Assembly: GCA_009789175.1 (NCBI GenBank)
Contig: CP046866.1
Coordinates: forward strand, 3,224,001 to 3,288,000
Origin: Salinibaculum litoreum
Lineage (GTDB): Archaea; Halobacteriota; Halobacteria; Halobacteriales; Haloarculaceae
DNA length: 64,000 nucleotides
Reading direction: 5' to 3'
Numbering within the stretch: the first letter of the stretch is position 1; every line of letters starts with the position of its first letter. Position numbers and translations under genes: made by a program. A model generated the notes under the pieces. The model was not told where the DNA came from and searched no databases. It was given only the letters and a program-made list of their open reading frames with translations. Positions 1,579 through 62,800 of this stretch are shown here, one piece after another.

Positions 1579-1618
1579 ACCGGAGCGAGGGCCGTCGAGA
1601 AAATAAATGCCGGGAGTC

Positions 1619-1727
1619 ATACTGTCGGCTGCAAATCTCTCAACTTGCACCTACGCATTGCCGGTGTCTGGCGGCTTGCAGGACGGCTTCTTCGTCACGT
1701 TCTTTAGCTACTTACAGCCGACAGTAT
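1619..1727. repeat. 109-bp inverted-repeat element, copy A
   Basis: The left end reads ATACTGTCGGCTGCAA (1619-1634). The right end is its reverse complement with one mismatch (TTACAGCCGACAGTAT, 1712-1727). The interior has no open reading frame. Copy B at 51261-51370 has nearly the same length and aligns along its whole length (roughly 80 percent by eye), sharing the blocks CTCATTG/GCATTG, GGCTTGC, GGACGGCTTC and CTCTTTA/TTCTTTA. The right end overlaps the TGA stop of the phosphodiesterase gene by one base, exactly as copy B does with its own neighbour. It may be a MITE or a structured 3' UTR. Confidence 0.75.
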
Positions 1728-2224
1728 CAGTCGATGTCGTGGAAGGTCACGTCGTCGGTCTCGGTGTCCCACAGCACCGCGGCGGGCGGTTCGCCACCCG
1801 CTGGCTCGGTCGGGATGCCGCCCGGGTTGATGTGGATGGTCCCGTCGTAGTCCTCGTGGACCTGCTCGTGTGTGTGCCCGCGGAGGACGACATCGTAGTT
1901 CCCCGACTCCAGCAAGGCGCCGACGATGGCTTCGCTGGTCCCGTGATAGATAGCGACCTCGTGGTCGTCGAGGACGAGTTCGCCCACCTCCCCGAGATAC
2001 ATGCCGAAGTTGTCGACGAGTTCCTTCAGCGCCCACTCGCCGTCGTTGTTGCCCCGGACCGCGTAGAAGTCGAAGTCGTCGTGGTCGAAGACCCGGGCGG
2101 TAAACGGCGAGACGATGTCGCCACAGTGGACCACGATATCCACGTCTTCCTCGGCGAAACGGTCGACGGCGGCCTGTGCGATGTCCAGATTGTCGTGCGT
2201 ATCGGAGACGATACCGACGAGCAT
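1727..2224 (-). CDS. MJ0936/YfcE family metallophosphodiesterase
   Basis: A 165-residue calcineurin-like phosphoesterase of the archaeal MJ0936 type, which hydrolyses phosphodiesters with two metal ions. The diagnostic motifs are present in order: SDTHDN near residues 7-12, HCGDIV near 33-38, GNND near 58-61, a histidine in the AIYHGTS segment, and GHTHEQ near 114-119. The ORF extends 35 codons upstream, but ATG 2224 begins the family N-terminus ([12 protein letters not shown]) and is preceded by a Shine-Dalgarno-like GGGAGGT, so it is the chosen start. The TGA stop overlaps the inverted repeat at 1619-1727. The gene is divergent from GAPDH, with about 100 bases between them. The physiological substrate is not predictable. 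Confidence 0.88.
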
Positions 2225-7901: not shown

Positions 7902-8294
7902 ATGAACGAGCAGGATGGGGATGGGAGAGCGGCCGAGACCACGGAGCGTCCGCTGGTTTCGGGGCCTGCGCATCTGGCTGACGACGAGTTCTATCGTGCG
8001 CTCGCCGACCGGACACGCCGCCGCCTCGCCTACTACCTCACGATGCAGTCGGAGACGACAGTCGAGGACAGCACCACCGCACTCGTCGGCTGGGACGTAT
8101 CGGGACAGGGCTCGATGGCGTCGCCATCGGACCACAAAGAGATGCGAACGGCACTCGAACACGTCCACCTCCCGATGCTGGCCGACGCCGGCCTCATCGA
8201 GTACGACCCCGACAGCGGGACCGTCGCAGCCGAGGACCTGCACGAGGATGTCGAGTGGCTGCTCGAACGGAGCATCACGACCGACCCCGAATGA
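7902..8294 (+). CDS. DUF7344-type winged-helix protein
   Basis: A 130-residue acidic protein resembling haloarchaeal DUF7344 domains, which are predicted winged-helix DNA- or protein-binding modules. The segment ADDEFYRALADRTRRRLAYYL (residues 26-46) and the later HLPMLADAGLIEYD (residues 88-101) match the helix and wing pattern of ArsR-like folds. A TATA box (TTTATTAG, 7869-7876) sits 26-33 bases before the ATG, supporting a leaderless start. The TGA stop is the first part of the repeat motif TGATACTGTCGGCTGTA. The DICT-domain gene begins 32 bases downstream and is probably functionally linked. Confidence 0.75.
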   Translation: MNEQDGDGRAAETTERPLVSGPAHLADDEFYRALADRTRRRLAYYLTMQSETTVEDSTTALVGWDVSGQGSMASPSDHKEMRTALEHVHLPMLADAGLIEYDPDSGTVAAEDLHEDVEWLLERSITTDPE

Positions 8295-8308
8295 TACTGT
8301 CGGCTGTA
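8292..8308 (+). repeat. Stop-codon repeat motif, single end (E)
   Basis: The TGA stop of the DUF7344 gene runs directly into ATACTGTCGGCTGTA, the end sequence of the inverted-repeat family seen at 1619-1727, 3388-3490, 25781-25859 and 51261-51370. No matching right end is found before the next gene starts at 8326, so this is a solo end. It lies in the 31-bp promoter region of the DICT gene. Confidence 0.6.
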
Positions 8309-24921: not shown

Positions 24922-25094
24922 GGTTGTCGGTTCGAGTCCCACGGCCGAAGGTCTACTGCCCGTGACGAGATAATCTGTGTTCGCGCGCGCGAACCCCTCA
25001 GTTCCAGTGGCGCTGATAGGATGACCACCGACCGGCTGGGCCTCGATGGATGTCGAACAGTACATCTTTCGGTCCTACCTGTCATCGGATACCC

Positions 25095-25781
25095 ATGGCT
25101 CTCGTCGCCGAGTTCGACGCCCGCTGTGAGCATTTGCCCTTCGTCGATGTCGCCAGGGCGCTCCCGGAGGCGACAGTCGTGCTGGACCCGCATTTCAACC
25201 ACGACGCACTCCCGCTGTTCGTCCTCTCTGTCACTGACGGGGACCAGGCAGTGGTCGAGGATGTCCTCGCCGAGGCCGGCGAAGCCGGTGAGTACACTGT
25301 CCTCGGGGAAGCAGGCGACACCCGCCGCTACCAGATTGAACCCGAGGAGAGTCTGGAGGAGAATCTCGGCCCACACATCGACGACCTGTCGGGACTGAAA
25401 TCGCTTGCCAGCACCGACGCAATCATCGAACGCACCGAGGTGCTGCCGACGGGCTGGCGTCACACCGGCTGGTTCGCCGACCGCGACGCCTTCGACGCTT
25501 TTCGGGACTTCTGGCAGCGAAACGGCGGCTTCCGGCTCCACCGCCTCACCCGCGAGGGTGACACCGAACCGCCCGGTGACGGCCTGACCGACCGCCAGCG
25601 TGAGGCCCTGCGGACCGCCTACGAGCTTGGGTATTTCGCCATCCCGCGGCGGGCCTCGCTTGAAGACGTTGCGAGGGAACTGGACATCTCCGCGTCGTCG
25701 GTCTCCGAGCGACTCCGCCGTGCTCAGACCCAGCTCATCGAGGAGACGGTCGCGACGACGTGGCCATCGCTGCCCGACTGA
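25095..25781 (+). CDS. Bacterio-opsin activator (Bat)-type HTH regulator
   Basis: A 228-residue regulator of the haloarchaeal Bat family. Residues 1-155 are an N-terminal sensory-like domain of unknown ligand, and residues 165-225 are the HTH_10 domain, starting LTDRQREALRTAYELGYFAIPRRASLEDVARELDISASSVSERLRRAQ. ATG 25095 begins MALVAEFDARC; the ATG at 25050 would extend into the promoter shared with the divergent methyltransferase. The stop TGA 25779-25781 overlaps the left end of the inverted-repeat element D. The ABC exporter operon starts 160 bases downstream on the same strand, so it is a candidate target. Confidence 0.85.
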   Translation: MALVAEFDARCEHLPFVDVARALPEATVVLDPHFNHDALPLFVLSVTDGDQAVVEDVLAEAGEAGEYTVLGEAGDTRRYQIEPEESLEENLGPHIDDLSGLKSLASTDAIIERTEVLPTGWRHTGWFADRDAFDAFRDFWQRNGGFRLHRLTREGDTEPPGDGLTDRQREALRTAYELGYFAIPRRASLEDVARELDISASSVSERLRRAQTQLIEETVATTWPSLPD

Positions 25782-25859
25782 TACTGTCGGACGTAAGCCC
25801 CTCAAGAACTTCGCCGCCCCGGGTGGCGAATATCTTTCCGCAGTTACGTCCAACAGTAT
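25781..25859. repeat. 79-bp inverted-repeat element, copy D
   Basis: The ends are ATACTGTCGGACGTAA (25781-25796) and TTACGTCCAACAGTAT (25844-25859), matching at 15 of 16 positions as inverted repeats. An inner palindrome TTCGCC...GGCGAA surrounds a GC-rich loop near 25810-25830. The left end is fused to the TGA stop of the Bat-type regulator by one base, as in the other family members, but the interior is unrelated to copies A and B. In RNA it would form a long stem. Confidence 0.7.
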
Positions 25860-25943
25860 GAGTGCAGAGTCGCGAGGGGACTTAAACGGCCTCACCAATT
25901 CGAGAACGGCCTACGGGGGAGCTACCGTGACGATTGAAGGCGT

Positions 25944-29180: not shown

Positions 29181-30653
<1,473 letters not shown>

Positions 30654-30736
30654 AACGACCGGGACTGGGGTTTTACCCCAGCCCACAGACACTGTCTGCC
30701 CGTGTGGCAGACACCGGTGACACGACGGCCGTGTCG

Positions 30737-30763
30737 ATCGGACACCGAACTGTCAGGGCTCAC
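30737..30763 (+). other. 16S pre-rRNA processing stem, 3' strand
   Basis: Complements the 5' strand at 29072-29101 and encloses the whole 16S. The same strand could also pair with the half-stem copies at 28310-28330 and 28710-28730. Confidence 0.85.
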
Positions 30764-30768
30764 GCCCT

Positions 30769-30834
30769 CGACCGATAGCTCAGTGGAAGAGCATCCGTTT
30801 CGCGAAGGCCCCGGTTCGATTCCGGGTCGGTCAC
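30769..30834 (+). pseudogene. tRNA-like sequence in 16S-23S spacer, anticodon arm incomplete
   Basis: Sits where haloarchaea normally carry tRNA-Ala. The acceptor strands CGACCGA and TCGGTCA pair except at the first position. The D arm (GCTC...GAGC) and the T arm (CCCGG-TTCGATT-CCGGG) are canonical. The anticodon region has a 5' strand TCCGT and a loop TTCGCGA (anticodon would be CGC, Ala), but the next bases AGGC lead straight into the T stem, so the 3' strand of the anticodon stem, about five bases, is missing. This makes it a likely inactive relic, or an element kept for RNA processing. Confidence 0.6.
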
Positions 30835-30936
30835 TCTCGCGGACATCCAGTCCGCAAACCGATGCACCATCCCGTGCAAGCGCGGATGGGAAGGGTTGAT
30901 ACACGTACCGTTCACCACGGGCGTGTGGATGACACC

Positions 30937-30954
30937 GTGTGTACGTGCGATCCA
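30937..30954 (+). other. 23S pre-rRNA processing stem, 5' strand
   Basis: Eighteen bases that pair at 16 positions with 34007-34024 beyond 23S. The adjacent GGACTCGTTCA near 30965 also pairs with TGAACGAGTCC near 33985, extending the stem that encloses pre-23S. Confidence 0.75.
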
Positions 30955-30993
30955 GGCGTCCACTGGACTCGTTCATCGAGTTCAATCGACGTC

Positions 30994-31044
30994 GTGAGTT
31001 CCATCTGGAACTCACACATTCCGTGAGTCCCCACCGGGACTCAC
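30994..31044 (+). other. Two tandem hairpins in pre-23S leader
   Basis: Hairpin 1 is GTGAGTTCC-ATCT-GGAACTCAC (30994-31015). Hairpin 2 is GTGAGTCCC-CACC-GGGACTCAC (31023-31044). Each has a perfect nine-base-pair stem and a four-base loop, and they end about eight bases before mature 23S. Confidence 0.8.
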
Positions 31045-31051
31045 AACCACA

Positions 31052-33963
<2,912 letters not shown>

Positions 33964-34006
33964 ATTCATACCGCATTGGACTCGTTGAACGAGTCCAGGC
34001 GCAATC

Positions 34007-34024
34007 TGGATCGCACGTGTACAC
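34007..34024 (+). other. 23S pre-rRNA processing stem, 3' strand
   Basis: Pairs with 30937-30954 and closes the pre-23S stem. Confidence 0.75.
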
Positions 34025-34029
34025 GGAGT

Positions 34030-34077
34030 AGACCGACCGACAATGGTCAGATCGCGGTTCGATTCCGCGAGTCGGCG
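34030..34077 (+). other. tRNA T-arm-like sequence in 23S-5S spacer
   Basis: Contains CGCGG-TTCGATT-CCGCG, a perfect T stem and loop, followed by AGTCGGC, but no D or anticodon arm. A similar linker occurs in other haloarchaeal operons as I recall. It may be a mimic recognised by RNase Z or P to free the 5S 5' end. The function is inferred. Confidence 0.5.
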
Positions 34078-34199
34078 TTAAGACGGCCATAGCGGCGGGG
34101 TAACACCCGTACCCATCCCGAACACGGAAGTTAAGCCCGCCAGCGTTCCGGTGAGTACTGGAGTGCGCGAGCCTCTGGGAAACTCGGTTCGCCGTCTCC
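34078..34199 (+). rRNA. rrf: 5S ribosomal RNA
   Basis: About 122 bases, starting TTAAGACGGCCATAGCGG and ending CGCCGTCTCC. Core segments CCCGTACCCATCCCGAACAC and TGGGAAACTCGG are typical. It is the last rRNA of the operon. No tRNA-Cys follows, unlike many haloarchaeal operons. Confidence 0.95.
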
Positions 34200-34209
34200 C
34201 ATTCATACC

Positions 34210-51260: not shown

Positions 51261-51370
51261 ATATCTGTCGCCTGTAACTCTATCAATCTGCACCGACTCA
51301 TTGCGGGAGTCCGGAGGCTTGCGGGACGGCTTCGCCGGCGCGCTCTTTACGTACGTACAGCCGACAGTAT
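51261..51370. repeat. 110-bp inverted-repeat element, copy B
   Basis: The right end is TACGTACAGCCGACAGTAT (51352-51370), and the left end is degenerate (ATATCTGTCGCCTGTAA, 51261-51277). It aligns with copy A (1619-1727) along its whole length and in the same orientation. The last base overlaps the TGA stop of the LOV kinase gene on the minus strand, as in copy A. It separates tRNA-Thr from the kinase. Confidence 0.75.
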
Positions 51371-53592
51371 CAGTCGGCGTCCGGTTCCGGTGACTCCGGT
51401 GTCGCGTCCCCGGTGGCCCGGGGGAGACTCACCACGACACTGGTGCCCCCGGATGGTGTGTCCTCGAAGGTGACTTCACCGCCAAATAGCGCCACCGTCC
51501 AGTAGACAATCCACAGGCCCAGGCCAGTCCCGTGCTGGAGTGGCGTTTCCTCGCCCGTTTCGAACGGTGCCTGTTCGTGGCGCGGGATGCCGGGACCGTC
51601 ATCCGCGATGACGATCTCTATCCACTCGCCGGCCCGCTCCTCCCTGGCTGGTCTGGCAGTCAGCCTCACTTCCGGTTCGGGCTGGTCGTTGTGTGCGATG
51701 GCGTTGGTGAGCAGTTCCCGCAGCGCTACCTGTAGTCGATTGTCCGCACGGGCGTACAGTCCATCCGGGCCGCTGATACTGAGTGTGGCGCTGGGATGTG
51801 ACTCCGAAAACTCCTCGACGAGTGTCGAGAGCAATTCCTGTACGTCACAGGCAGTCTCGGCCGGTGACTCGTCGTCGAACAGCGAGCGGACCGTTCCGGC
51901 TTCGTCGCTCAGCCGCGCCAGTTCCTCGGTTCGGGCTTCGATTGCCGAGACGTGTGACTCCAGCTCTGTCCCGGCAAGCTCGTCGCGGAGCAATGCGGCG
52001 TGGCCTTCGATGACGGTCATGCCGTTCCGGACGTTGTGTCGTAGCACGCGGTTGAGGACGCCGAGCCGTTGCTCGCGCAGCCGGCGGTTCGTCACGTCGG
52101 CCTCGATAGCGACGAAGTGGCTGATTTCCCCCGCGGCGTTCGTAATCGGCGAAATCGTCTGGTCGACGTGGTATAGCTCCCCGTTTTTGCGCTGATTGAT
52201 GAGGCGGGCATCCCATCTCTCGCCGTCGAGAATCGTCTCCCACAGCTCCCTGTAGAACGCTTCGTTGTGTTTGCCAGATTTGAGAATGCGTGGCGTCTGA
52301 CCCACGGCCTCGGCACTGCTGTAGCCCGTGCGGGCCTCGAACGCGGGGTTCACGTACTCGATGATGCCGCCCCTGTCCGTGATGAACGCGGAGTGAGCCA
52401 TATTCTCGACAGCTTTTTTGAACAACTGCAGGTTCTGGTCGCGCTCCTTGCGCTCGGTGACGTCTTGCTGGAAGCCGATGAAGTGTCGGACGTCCCCGCT
52501 GTCGTCTCTCACCGGGGCGATACTCACACGGTTCCAGAACTGGCTGCCGTCTTTCCGATAGTTCCGGAGCTCCACTGATACCGGCTCGGCAGCAGCAATC
52601 GCTTCCCGCAGTTTCTTCACGGACTCGGCCCGGGTGTCTTCGCCCTGCAGGAACCGACAGTTTCGGCCGAGGGCATCGGCTTCGGTGTAGCCGGTCACCT
52701 CCTCGAACCCGTCGTTTACGTAGATTATCGGGTTATCTTCCCTGGTGGGGTCGCTGATGGTGATGCCGACGGGTGCCTCGTCCATCGCCCGCGATTTCAA
52801 TTCGAGTTCCCGCTCGTAGGCCTTCTGTGCGGTCACGTCCCGTGCCGAGAGGATGACCGGCGACTGGTCGGTGTCATCGAGCGTCGCGGCCGAGACTTCC
52901 AGTTGACGGGTCTCTCCGTCGTTTCGCAGACATGCCAGCTCACCGGTCCACCCGCCCTCGGCCTGCTGGATGTCCTGGAGTATCGACCGGAGTCGCTCGC
53001 GGTACTCTGGTGCGATTATCGCAGACGGTGACACAGAGAGCAACTCCTCGCGTGTGTACCCGACGAGGTCACACGCTGCCGGGTTGCACTCGGTAATCTC
53101 TTTCCCCGTGGGTGTGATGACGATGAGCGCGTCGTTCGTCGCGTTGAACACCCGTTGGAACCGCGTCTGGACGTCCTCGTAACGCCTGGACAACTCCAGG
53201 GACTGCTCGCGGCGGGCGAGCAGGTTCCCCAGCCGACGGTGCAGGGTCGTCCTGGTGACTGGTGCAGCCACGACTTCGTCGATGAGCGGTGGCCCGTCGT
53301 CATTCTGTTCGGACGGCGGCGGGATGGTCCCCCGTGATTGCTCCTGGCGAATCAGCAGCACCGGACAAAACGTCGGGTCGGCGTCCCGCTTGTGCGCCCG
53401 GAGGGCACCGCGGTAGGACGGGACCATCCGGTCACCGATGACATAGCAGTCGGCAGCGACGAGTTCGTCCCCGGTGACGATGTCGTACCGGTCACCGAGT
53501 AACTCCGTGAGGGCTGTTCGGTCACTGTCCCCGTGGACGAGCAACTGCACGGTCTGGCGGTCACCGTCTTCAGGGGTCGGCTGGTCGGTCAT
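51370..53592 (-). CDS. LOV/PAS histidine kinase, putative blue-light sensor
   Basis: A 740-residue cytoplasmic kinase. Residues 1-125 form a receiver-like domain without a clear phospho-Asp, and a PAS domain follows at about 145-265. A LOV domain spans about 268-385: GRNCRFLQGEDT (309-320) holds the flavin-reactive Cys312, and NYRKDGSQFWNRVSIAPV is also LOV-like. A further PAS lies at about 395-510, then HisKA RVLRHNVRNGM (about 520) and an HATPase with TNAIAHND, DDGPGIPRHE and GTGLGLWIVY. It should bind FMN and respond to blue light. It starts six bases after the KaiC-like gene, so both form an operon. Confidence 0.88.
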   Translation of the reverse strand: MTDQPTPEDGDRQTVQLLVHGDSDRTALTELLGDRYDIVTGDELVAADCYVIGDRMVPSYRGALRAHKRDADPTFCPVLLIRQEQSRGTIPPPSEQNDDGPPLIDEVVAAPVTRTTLHRRLGNLLARREQSLELSRRYEDVQTRFQRVFNATNDALIVITPTGKEITECNPAACDLVGYTREELLSVSPSAIIAPEYRERLRSILQDIQQAEGGWTGELACLRNDGETRQLEVSAATLDDTDQSPVILSARDVTAQKAYERELELKSRAMDEAPVGITISDPTREDNPIIYVNDGFEEVTGYTEADALGRNCRFLQGEDTRAESVKKLREAIAAAEPVSVELRNYRKDGSQFWNRVSIAPVRDDSGDVRHFIGFQQDVTERKERDQNLQLFKKAVENMAHSAFITDRGGIIEYVNPAFEARTGYSSAEAVGQTPRILKSGKHNEAFYRELWETILDGERWDARLINQRKNGELYHVDQTISPITNAAGEISHFVAIEADVTNRRLREQRLGVLNRVLRHNVRNGMTVIEGHAALLRDELAGTELESHVSAIEARTEELARLSDEAGTVRSLFDDESPAETACDVQELLSTLVEEFSESHPSATLSISGPDGLYARADNRLQVALRELLTNAIAHNDQPEPEVRLTARPAREERAGEWIEIVIADDGPGIPRHEQAPFETGEETPLQHGTGLGLWIVYWTVALFGGEVTFEDTPSGGTSVVVSLPRATGDATPESPEPDAD

Positions 53593-60747: not shown

Positions 60748-62787
60748 ATGCAACCACAGCGTCTCGGAGCCCTCGTGACAGTCGCGCTGGCCGTCAGCGC
60801 CCTTGCCGGTGCGGGCATCGCGCTCTCGGTGGTTGACACCGGCGGGCCGGAGACGACAACGGACCACCCTGGCAACGGGTCGGACCTGACCGCCGGGTCA
60901 CCGACGGTCGCTGCGCTGTCGGGAGAGACGGGGACAGTCGAGCAGTTCGAGACCAGAGACGCCTTTCAGTCCTACGTCGCTGCCGGCCAGCGCCAGACTC
61001 GGGGTGTTTACACCGGTATGGGCGGCGTCAGTGGGGTGACCACGGATGTCGCCAACGAGCGAGCCGAGTCGGCCGATGTCCCGGCTGATGCCGGTGACGA
61101 CGCAGCCAGTATGCCCTCCCGGGTCGCCGAGACCAACGTGCAGGTCGGCACGCTCGATGAACCCGACCGCGTGAAAACCGACGGCGTCAATTTCTACTAT
61201 GCGCCGGAGTACCGCCGGTATCACGCCAAACCTCGCCCCCAGCCCGATGTCGAGCGCGAGGAATATCGGCGACCACGCGAACCGAACACGCACGTCATCG
61301 ATGCGAGCGACCCCGAAGCTCCCGAGGCAGTCAGCGAGATAAACACCAGCGGGCAACTGCTCCAGACGGGCGACCGGCTGGTCGTCTTCGAGCATGACCG
61401 CATTGCGGGCTATGACATAACAGACCCCGAGAATCCCACCGAGACGTGGACTCACCCGCTGAACGGGTCGATGGTCACTGCCCGCGAGGCCAACGGGACG
61501 GTGTATCTGGTCACCAGGTCTTCGGTCGGACCGGGCACCGACTGCCCGATTCGGCCGATGGGAGCGGAGACCGTCGCGTGTACGGATGTCTATCGTCCGG
61601 GCACCCAGATTGCGGCCGACGCCACCTACACGGCATTCAGTATCGACGCCGCCGAGGGGGTTGTTCGTGACTCCGTGAGTTTCGTCGGCACCGCCGACAA
61701 CTCAGCTATTTACATGTCCCCGAACGCACTCTATGTCACCTACACCGAGCGCGCCGACCGGGCGGCATTGCTCGGGACGTTCATCCGTGAGAAATACGAC
61801 CGGACGCCCGAGCACGTCGACCAGCGTATTGCCGAGATTCAGTCCTACAACATCACGACAGCCTCGAAACTCCGTGAGATGCGGACGACCATCCGACAGT
61901 GGACCGCCTCCCTCCCCGAGGATGAGCGCCGGGAGGTCCGTGAGTCCTTCACCGAGCAACTCGGTGCGTTCCTCCACGACCAGCGCCGGAACCTGACGAC
62001 GACCGGTATCGTCAGAGTCGGTGTCGACAGCGGCTCACTGTCCGTCGAGACGACGGGGACAGTGCCCGGTGAGCCGCTGAACCAGTTCTCGCTGGACGAA
62101 CACGATGGCACGCTGCGGATAACGACGACCATCCCGCGGACCGGCAGTGGCGACAGCACAAACGACCTCTATACGCTCGATGCGACGACGCTCGACCGGA
62201 CTGGGTCGGTCACCGCCATGGGTGACGACCAGCGCGTCTACGCCGTCCGGTACGTCGAGGACACCGCCTACGTCGTCACCTACCGGCAGGTCGACCCGCT
62301 TCACGTCGTCGACCTCTCGGACCCCGCCGAACCCGTGGAGACGGGGACCCTGGAACTCCCGGGGTACTCCTCGTATCTCCACCCTATCGATGCTGACACC
62401 GTCCTCGGCATCGGTGAGGAGGACGGCAAGGTCAAGTCTGTCCTCTTCGATGTCTCGGACCCACGGAACCCAACGAGTGCGGACTCACAGGTCTATGACA
62501 AGCGCTACTCGGAAATCAGCGATACCCACCACGCCTTCCTCATCGACCGCCGTCACGAGGTGTTCGTGTTGCCGGCCGGTGACGCGGCGCTGGCAGTCGA
62601 TTACACCGACGGCGAACTGACCACCCGGGCGACTATCGATACTGACCGCCCCGTCACCCGAACCCGCTACGTCGATGAATCGCTGTATGTCTTCGCCGGC
62701 CACACCGTCACCGTCGTCGACGAGACCGACTGGTCGACCACGACGACTCTCCATCTGGAACTGCTCGACGACGACCGCTCTGACTGA
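60748..62787 (+). CDS. Secreted beta-propeller domain protein
   Basis: A 679-residue exported protein. The N-terminus is MQPQRLGALVTVALAVSALAGAGIA, a Sec-type signal or membrane anchor, followed by a Thr/Gly-rich spacer. From about 140 on it belongs to the beta-propeller family (pfam09826-like), with repeats of the HVIDASDPEAPEAV and HVVDLSDPAEPVETG type. About 350-410 holds a helical insert. A TATA box (CTTATAGG, about 60717-60724) precedes it. Its stop TGA continues as ATACTGTCGACTGT, the repeat family end. Confidence 0.85.
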   Translation: MQPQRLGALVTVALAVSALAGAGIALSVVDTGGPETTTDHPGNGSDLTAGSPTVAALSGETGTVEQFETRDAFQSYVAAGQRQTRGVYTGMGGVSGVTTDVANERAESADVPADAGDDAASMPSRVAETNVQVGTLDEPDRVKTDGVNFYYAPEYRRYHAKPRPQPDVEREEYRRPREPNTHVIDASDPEAPEAVSEINTSGQLLQTGDRLVVFEHDRIAGYDITDPENPTETWTHPLNGSMVTAREANGTVYLVTRSSVGPGTDCPIRPMGAETVACTDVYRPGTQIAADATYTAFSIDAAEGVVRDSVSFVGTADNSAIYMSPNALYVTYTERADRAALLGTFIREKYDRTPEHVDQRIAEIQSYNITTASKLREMRTTIRQWTASLPEDERREVRESFTEQLGAFLHDQRRNLTTTGIVRVGVDSGSLSVETTGTVPGEPLNQFSLDEHDGTLRITTTIPRTGSGDSTNDLYTLDATTLDRTGSVTAMGDDQRVYAVRYVEDTAYVVTYRQVDPLHVVDLSDPAEPVETGTLELPGYSSYLHPIDADTVLGIGEEDGKVKSVLFDVSDPRNPTSADSQVYDKRYSEISDTHHAFLIDRRHEVFVLPAGDAALAVDYTDGELTTRATIDTDRPVTRTRYVDESLYVFAGHTVTVVDETDWSTTTTLHLELLDDDRSD

Positions 62788-62800
62788 TACTGTCGACTGT
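62785..62800 (+). repeat. Stop-codon repeat motif, single end (F)
   Basis: TGATACTGTCGACTGT, the TGA being the propeller gene stop. There is one change from the consensus (GGCTGT to GACTGT). No second end was found in the following 110 bases. Confidence 0.5.

Follow-up and report, generated by a model that had tools for sequence, protein, structure and literature searches.

The 3-bp target duplications of insertion sequences of the IS5-family IS1031 type and of PIF/Harbinger-like transposons have the form TNA or TWA, and we take DDE_Tnp_1_2 and DDE_Tnp_4 (PF13586 and PF13359) to be the typical catalytic domains of their transposases. Among haloarchaea, the HqIRS MITEs and the SMR-A element of Haloquadratum walsbyi are short, non-coding sequences with inverted-repeat ends that occur in many copies, often in genomes that lack a functional partner transposase (PMC3119063). 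SMR-A is about 110 bp long, generates no target duplication and targets the palindromes of IS605-type elements (PMC3119063). Prokaryotic MITEs in general, RUP, BOX and SPRITE of the pneumococcus among them, are small hairpin-forming elements that lie mostly outside genes, and some of them have been discussed as possible terminators; the term "stop codon" does not appear in the main text of a review of these elements, which describes no use of the stop itself as the duplicated target (PMC10969869).

The window analysed here is a stretch of 64,000 nucleotides from the genome of Salinibaculum litoreum (contig CP046866.1, positions 3,224,001 to 3,288,000), in which an initial annotation had described two related elements, A and B, at the ends of two genes 50 kb apart. 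Both are real, related, non-coding and alignable from end to end, with B 80% identical to A, and what had been called ITR-like ends are terminal inverted repeats of the form TACTGYYGG...CCRRCAGTA. The boundaries first given, which made each element overlap a TGA stop by one base, were one base off, and the elements abut the stops. Element A, a 107-bp MITE at 1620..1726 with the ends TACTGTCGGCTG and CAGCCGACAGTA, lies between two TCA triplets (1617..1619 and 1727..1729), the second of which, in minus-strand orientation, serves as the TGA stop of a gene for a calcineurin-like phosphoesterase (1727..2224, minus strand; PF12850, E 1.9e-35) whose start codon is uncertain, the longest open reading frame beginning at 2329. 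Element B (51263..51369), also a 107-bp MITE, has a decayed left end, with ATCTGTCG in place of TACTGTCG and no intact duplication. Its right target triplet, TCA at 51370..51372, is the minus-strand TGA stop of a gene for a protein with three PAS domains and a histidine-kinase ATPase domain (51370..53592, minus strand).

The window also holds a third element that the initial annotation had missed, a 77-bp MITE of the 78-bp class at 25782..25858. Its left TGA duplication (25779..25781, plus strand) is the stop of the reading frame 25050-25781, which encodes an HTH_10 regulator, and its right TGA duplication is at 25859-25861. Two solo element ends stand directly after TGA stops, TACTGTCGGCTGTA at 8295..8308 behind the reading frame 7902-8294 (DUF7344) and TACTGTCGACTG at 62788..62799 behind the reading frame 60748-62787 (a beta-propeller protein); a search for partner ends of these two found none. 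None of the elements or solo ends is assigned a strand. A complete rRNA operon (16S, spacer tRNA, 23S and 5S) occupies 29181-34200 of the same window.

A search of the 3.73-Mb S. litoreum genome returned seven full-length copies of the A/B type (E 2e-51 to 4e-19) together with cousins of 77-78 bp, and elements with the same ends were found in related genomes. Four of the seven full-length copies adjoin stops (A, B, L002 and L006) and three do not (L003, L004 and L007), so that the fixed placement at stop codons proposed earlier does not hold. The flanks of the seven are TCA/TCA or TGA/TGA, the exception being B on its left side. The check whether a TGA always begins one end of the element likewise came out negative: the TGA is a duplicated target triplet that lies outside the element, and not every copy is at a stop. 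The placement had further been taken as an argument against a MITE, and this argument falls with the clear TNA target duplications of the copies. The elements are short, contain no transposase gene and occur in several dispersed copies. A and B are very probably non-autonomous DNA transposons (MITEs) that duplicate a TNA target and strongly over-use in-frame stop codons, to an extent that local sequence leaves unexplained.

The terminal inverted repeats of the family read TACTGYYGG[CA][TC][GA]TA, and the ends TACTGYCGGCTGTA are the only part common to elements across haloarchaea, the interiors differing between lineages. The 107-bp interior of A and B was matched only in the S. litoreum genome among those searched; elements of 104-107 bp with the same ends and other interiors are present in other genomes. 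The fetched loci contain 250 elements, compared to 0 in the reversed-sequence control of the same loci, with a full length range of 41-113 bp. Two narrow size classes stand out, with 226 elements of 77-79 bp and 12 of 102-108 bp, and ascertainment contributes to these classes, since queries of 77-107 bp were used to fetch many of the loci. A scan of the Natribaculum plasmid without length limit gave 13 elements of 78 bp and 2 of 108 bp. The two 108-bp elements on the plasmid of Natribaculum breve (L484 2706-2813 and L489 30213-30320) have a different end, TACTRCCGGACAACAGTC, and the same TNA duplication, and constitute a further subfamily. Beside the clusters at ~78 and ~107 bp, a few shorter elements (41 and 47 bp) occur among all loci (in S. 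litoreum at L024 and L064), and the steps of ~30 bp in element length might be a consequence of helical phasing between the two ends. Some elements lie side by side: at L447, L454 and L466 of genome G001 the target, TGA followed by TACTGGTGG, is the junction of another MITE with related ends, and composite pairs of 159 bp were seen among the fetched loci.

The family is widespread. The 14-mer TACTGTCGGCTGTA is found in 54 of the 146 genomes of the host's taxonomic family and is nearly absent from the reversed control, and the 78-bp class occurs in 56 of the same 146 genomes and also in other families of the class, which brings the total to 63 of the 391 genomes sampled. Among the matches with a name are Haloarcula, Halomicrobium katesii, Halapricum, Halostella, Natronomonas, Halorussus amylolyticus and Halostagnicola. 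The 78-bp type was found in 12 plasmid records, with Natribaculum and Haloarcula hispanica among the named hosts, and in several of these records the element falls on a stretch without annotated features; the 107-bp type had no match in plasmid records. A search of phage records with the element gave no match, and 44 single-end matches in viral contigs were judged to be chance, as none had paired ends with TNA duplications.

Exact TNA direct repeats flank 69 of 79 copies from relatives (35 TCA, 22 TGA, 6 TTA and 6 TAA). The duplication recurs in a second set, in a held-out set and at 39 of the 41 copies in the census of G001, and it has a constant length of 3 bp at most copies when the 174 unique sites are pooled, which answers the earlier call for a check of the flanks. 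The two flanks carry the same central base of TNA in direct, not inverted, orientation. On this ground a 2-bp TA or a 5-bp TNATA duplication was considered and rejected, and the triplet belongs to the duplicated target, outside the inverted repeat. Two insertions, L183 and L175, are absent from genome G062, where the sequence runs uninterrupted through a single triplet; such empty sites in relatives confirm the duplication and show a clean insertion of the element plus 3 bp. The same evidence bears on the idea that the elements bring their own stop, a TGA in the element end, and truncate the genes that they enter, so that insertion itself would create the coincidence with stops. A stop does directly adjoin the element at A, at B and at many other sites, but the TNA is repeated directly, not inversely, across the element, and the gene at L002 ends at the same codon in relatives that lack the element, with TGA in G144 and G064 and TAG in G142. 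The element thus entered an existing stop and duplicated it, and an element-supplied stop, contradicted by these empty sites, is extremely improbable.

To quantify the use of stops, the TGA and TAA targets of insertions were compared with a background made up of every remaining TGA and TAA triplet of the loci that contain them, with gene ends taken from a simple codon-usage caller trained on the window and not from curated annotation. Solo ends were left out of the counts where the search pattern contained TGA, which biases such finds towards stops. Of the 84 non-coding TGA targets in the first two sets, 43 are exact stops, compared to 7.3 expected from the counts. The held-out set has 10 of 25 TGA targets at stops. 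Similarity or pattern searches supplied most of the site sets, and the only near-complete census of a single genome, that of G001, has 9 of 33 (27%) at stops compared to a background of 7.9% (p = 8e-4). For the pooled 174 unique sites, 60 of 137 (44%) non-coding TGA targets are at stops versus 9% of the background (p = 5e-27), which bears out the suggestion that insertion is tied to the stop codon beyond chance, and for TAA targets the pooled count is 6 of 23 versus 3.9%. The enrichment ranges from about 3.5-fold in the G001 census to about 6-fold in the pool, the latter relative to TGAs within 60 bp behind stops. The 46 stop sites (TGA and TAA) of the first two sets are spread over 44 gene families, and shared ancestry is therefore no explanation.

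It is possible, though rather doubtful, that we are dealing with an ordinary MITE that inserts at random TNA sites, and that the placement at stops is a matter of survivorship, with insertions in genes being lost and a duplicated stop being harmless. Genes hold most of the TGAs but just 14 of the 151 TGA targets, so that insertions in genes are indeed rare. The target motif of the insertions, KAC-TNA-G with the duplicated triplet in the middle and hence GAC or TAC before TGA and G after it, partly coincides with haloarchaeal gene ends, often GAC-TGA. However, weighting by a motif learned from non-stop insertions lifts the expectation for the 43 observed stop sites only from 7.3 to 9-12.5, and class-matched rates or a regression that includes flank GC give 5-7. 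The motif fits gene ends yet accounts for a minor part of the stop preference. Loss of harmful insertions fares no better when neighboring regions are considered: the 60 bp after stops contain more background TGAs than the stops themselves (356 versus 228) but received 16 insertions compared to 60, and the 60 bp or less upstream of genes is not depleted, with 11 insertions observed versus about 13-15 expected after motif weighting. The most robust comparison is the pooled one that sets stop TGAs against those lying up to 60 bp behind a stop (odds 5.9, p = 3e-11), because missed genes inflate the other intergenic background.

The initial annotation had offered selection as a 3' UTR as one reading, and the elements might accordingly be retained at gene ends for a function, as a terminator or a stabiliser of the 3' UTR. 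Element A folds better than its shuffles on either strand (z about -4.3), and the solo ends persist directly after stops, though the search that found them favours a conserved TGA. These observations have to be set against the fold of B, which is no better than that of shuffled sequences (z -0.2 and -0.6), the lack of conservation of element interiors between lineages, and the result of the Rfam search, which gave no credible match, its one sub-threshold hit lying outside the elements and being put down to chance. Insertions do not favour the 60 bp after stops, though a terminator would serve there equally. Of the recent copies, defined by at least 97% identity to another copy, 25 of 48 are at stops, compared to 8 of 25 divergent ones, so that the enrichment is no weaker in the recent group. 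Selection for such a role is not needed to account for the placement, and we consider it quite improbable.

The stop preference is already complete in recent copies and therefore most likely operates at the insertion itself or very shortly afterwards. We incline slightly towards recognition of some gene-end feature at insertion, which seems somewhat likelier than immediate selection. A more specific version, in which the machinery would recognise in-frame stops as such, for example by being coupled to archaeal translation or transcription termination, appears unlikely. The sequence of events we envisage for the A/B MITEs is that a transposase acting in trans would cut at TNA within KAC-TNA-G and insert the element, whereby the triplet would become duplicated. 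At a stop codon the duplication keeps a complete stop on the side of the gene, and the end of the protein is therefore unchanged. Insertions at stops that spare proteins would help explain how compact archaeal genomes carry tens of copies, and if stop recognition is true, a mobile element would have a harmless landing site built into most genes. A preference of 3.5- to 6-fold that is explained neither by local sequence nor by tolerance of the 3' flank raises the question of how a transposase could find gene ends.

We found no autonomous element or transposase with these ends in the domain loci, the fetched loci, G001 or the plasmid. In all fetched loci no long element with the same ends contains a transposase, and no autonomous element emerged from the whole-genome list of ends and single-ended sites in G001, which has about 40 two-ended copies, or from 626 kb of the Natribaculum breve plasmid. 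PF13586 and PF13359 were detected in 0 of the 146 genomes of the host's family. Several candidates were discarded. Loci with PF01609 (DDE_Tnp_1) were considered as the partner, and the elements inspected there have other ends. An apparent 1,491-bp element in G001 (L213 1008-2498) is an unrelated 1,403-bp insertion sequence inside a 78-bp MITE; this insertion sequence is of the DDE_Tnp_1 type and has a short duplication of its own. The apparent long pairs of ends in L101, L195 and L146 enclose no transposase-like gene.

No description of elements that target stop codons was found in the literature searched, which mostly excluded subscription papers. The A/B family shares with IS1031-type and PIF/Harbinger-like elements the length and the palindromic T-N-A form of the target duplication, whereas the catalytic domains typical of the latter were not detected in the 146 host-family genomes; this comparison is one of duplications and domains. 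Prokaryotic MITEs such as RUP, BOX and SPRITE resemble the A/B family in being small hairpin-forming elements mostly outside genes. The HqIRS elements, compared here by description, and SMR-A are likewise haloarchaeal, short and non-coding and have terminal inverted repeats, SMR-A being also of similar length. Unlike SMR-A, the A/B family makes a TNA duplication and targets stops and other TNA sites. Judged by the descriptions of the MITEs compared, the use of a stop codon as the duplicated target sets the A/B family apart from them.
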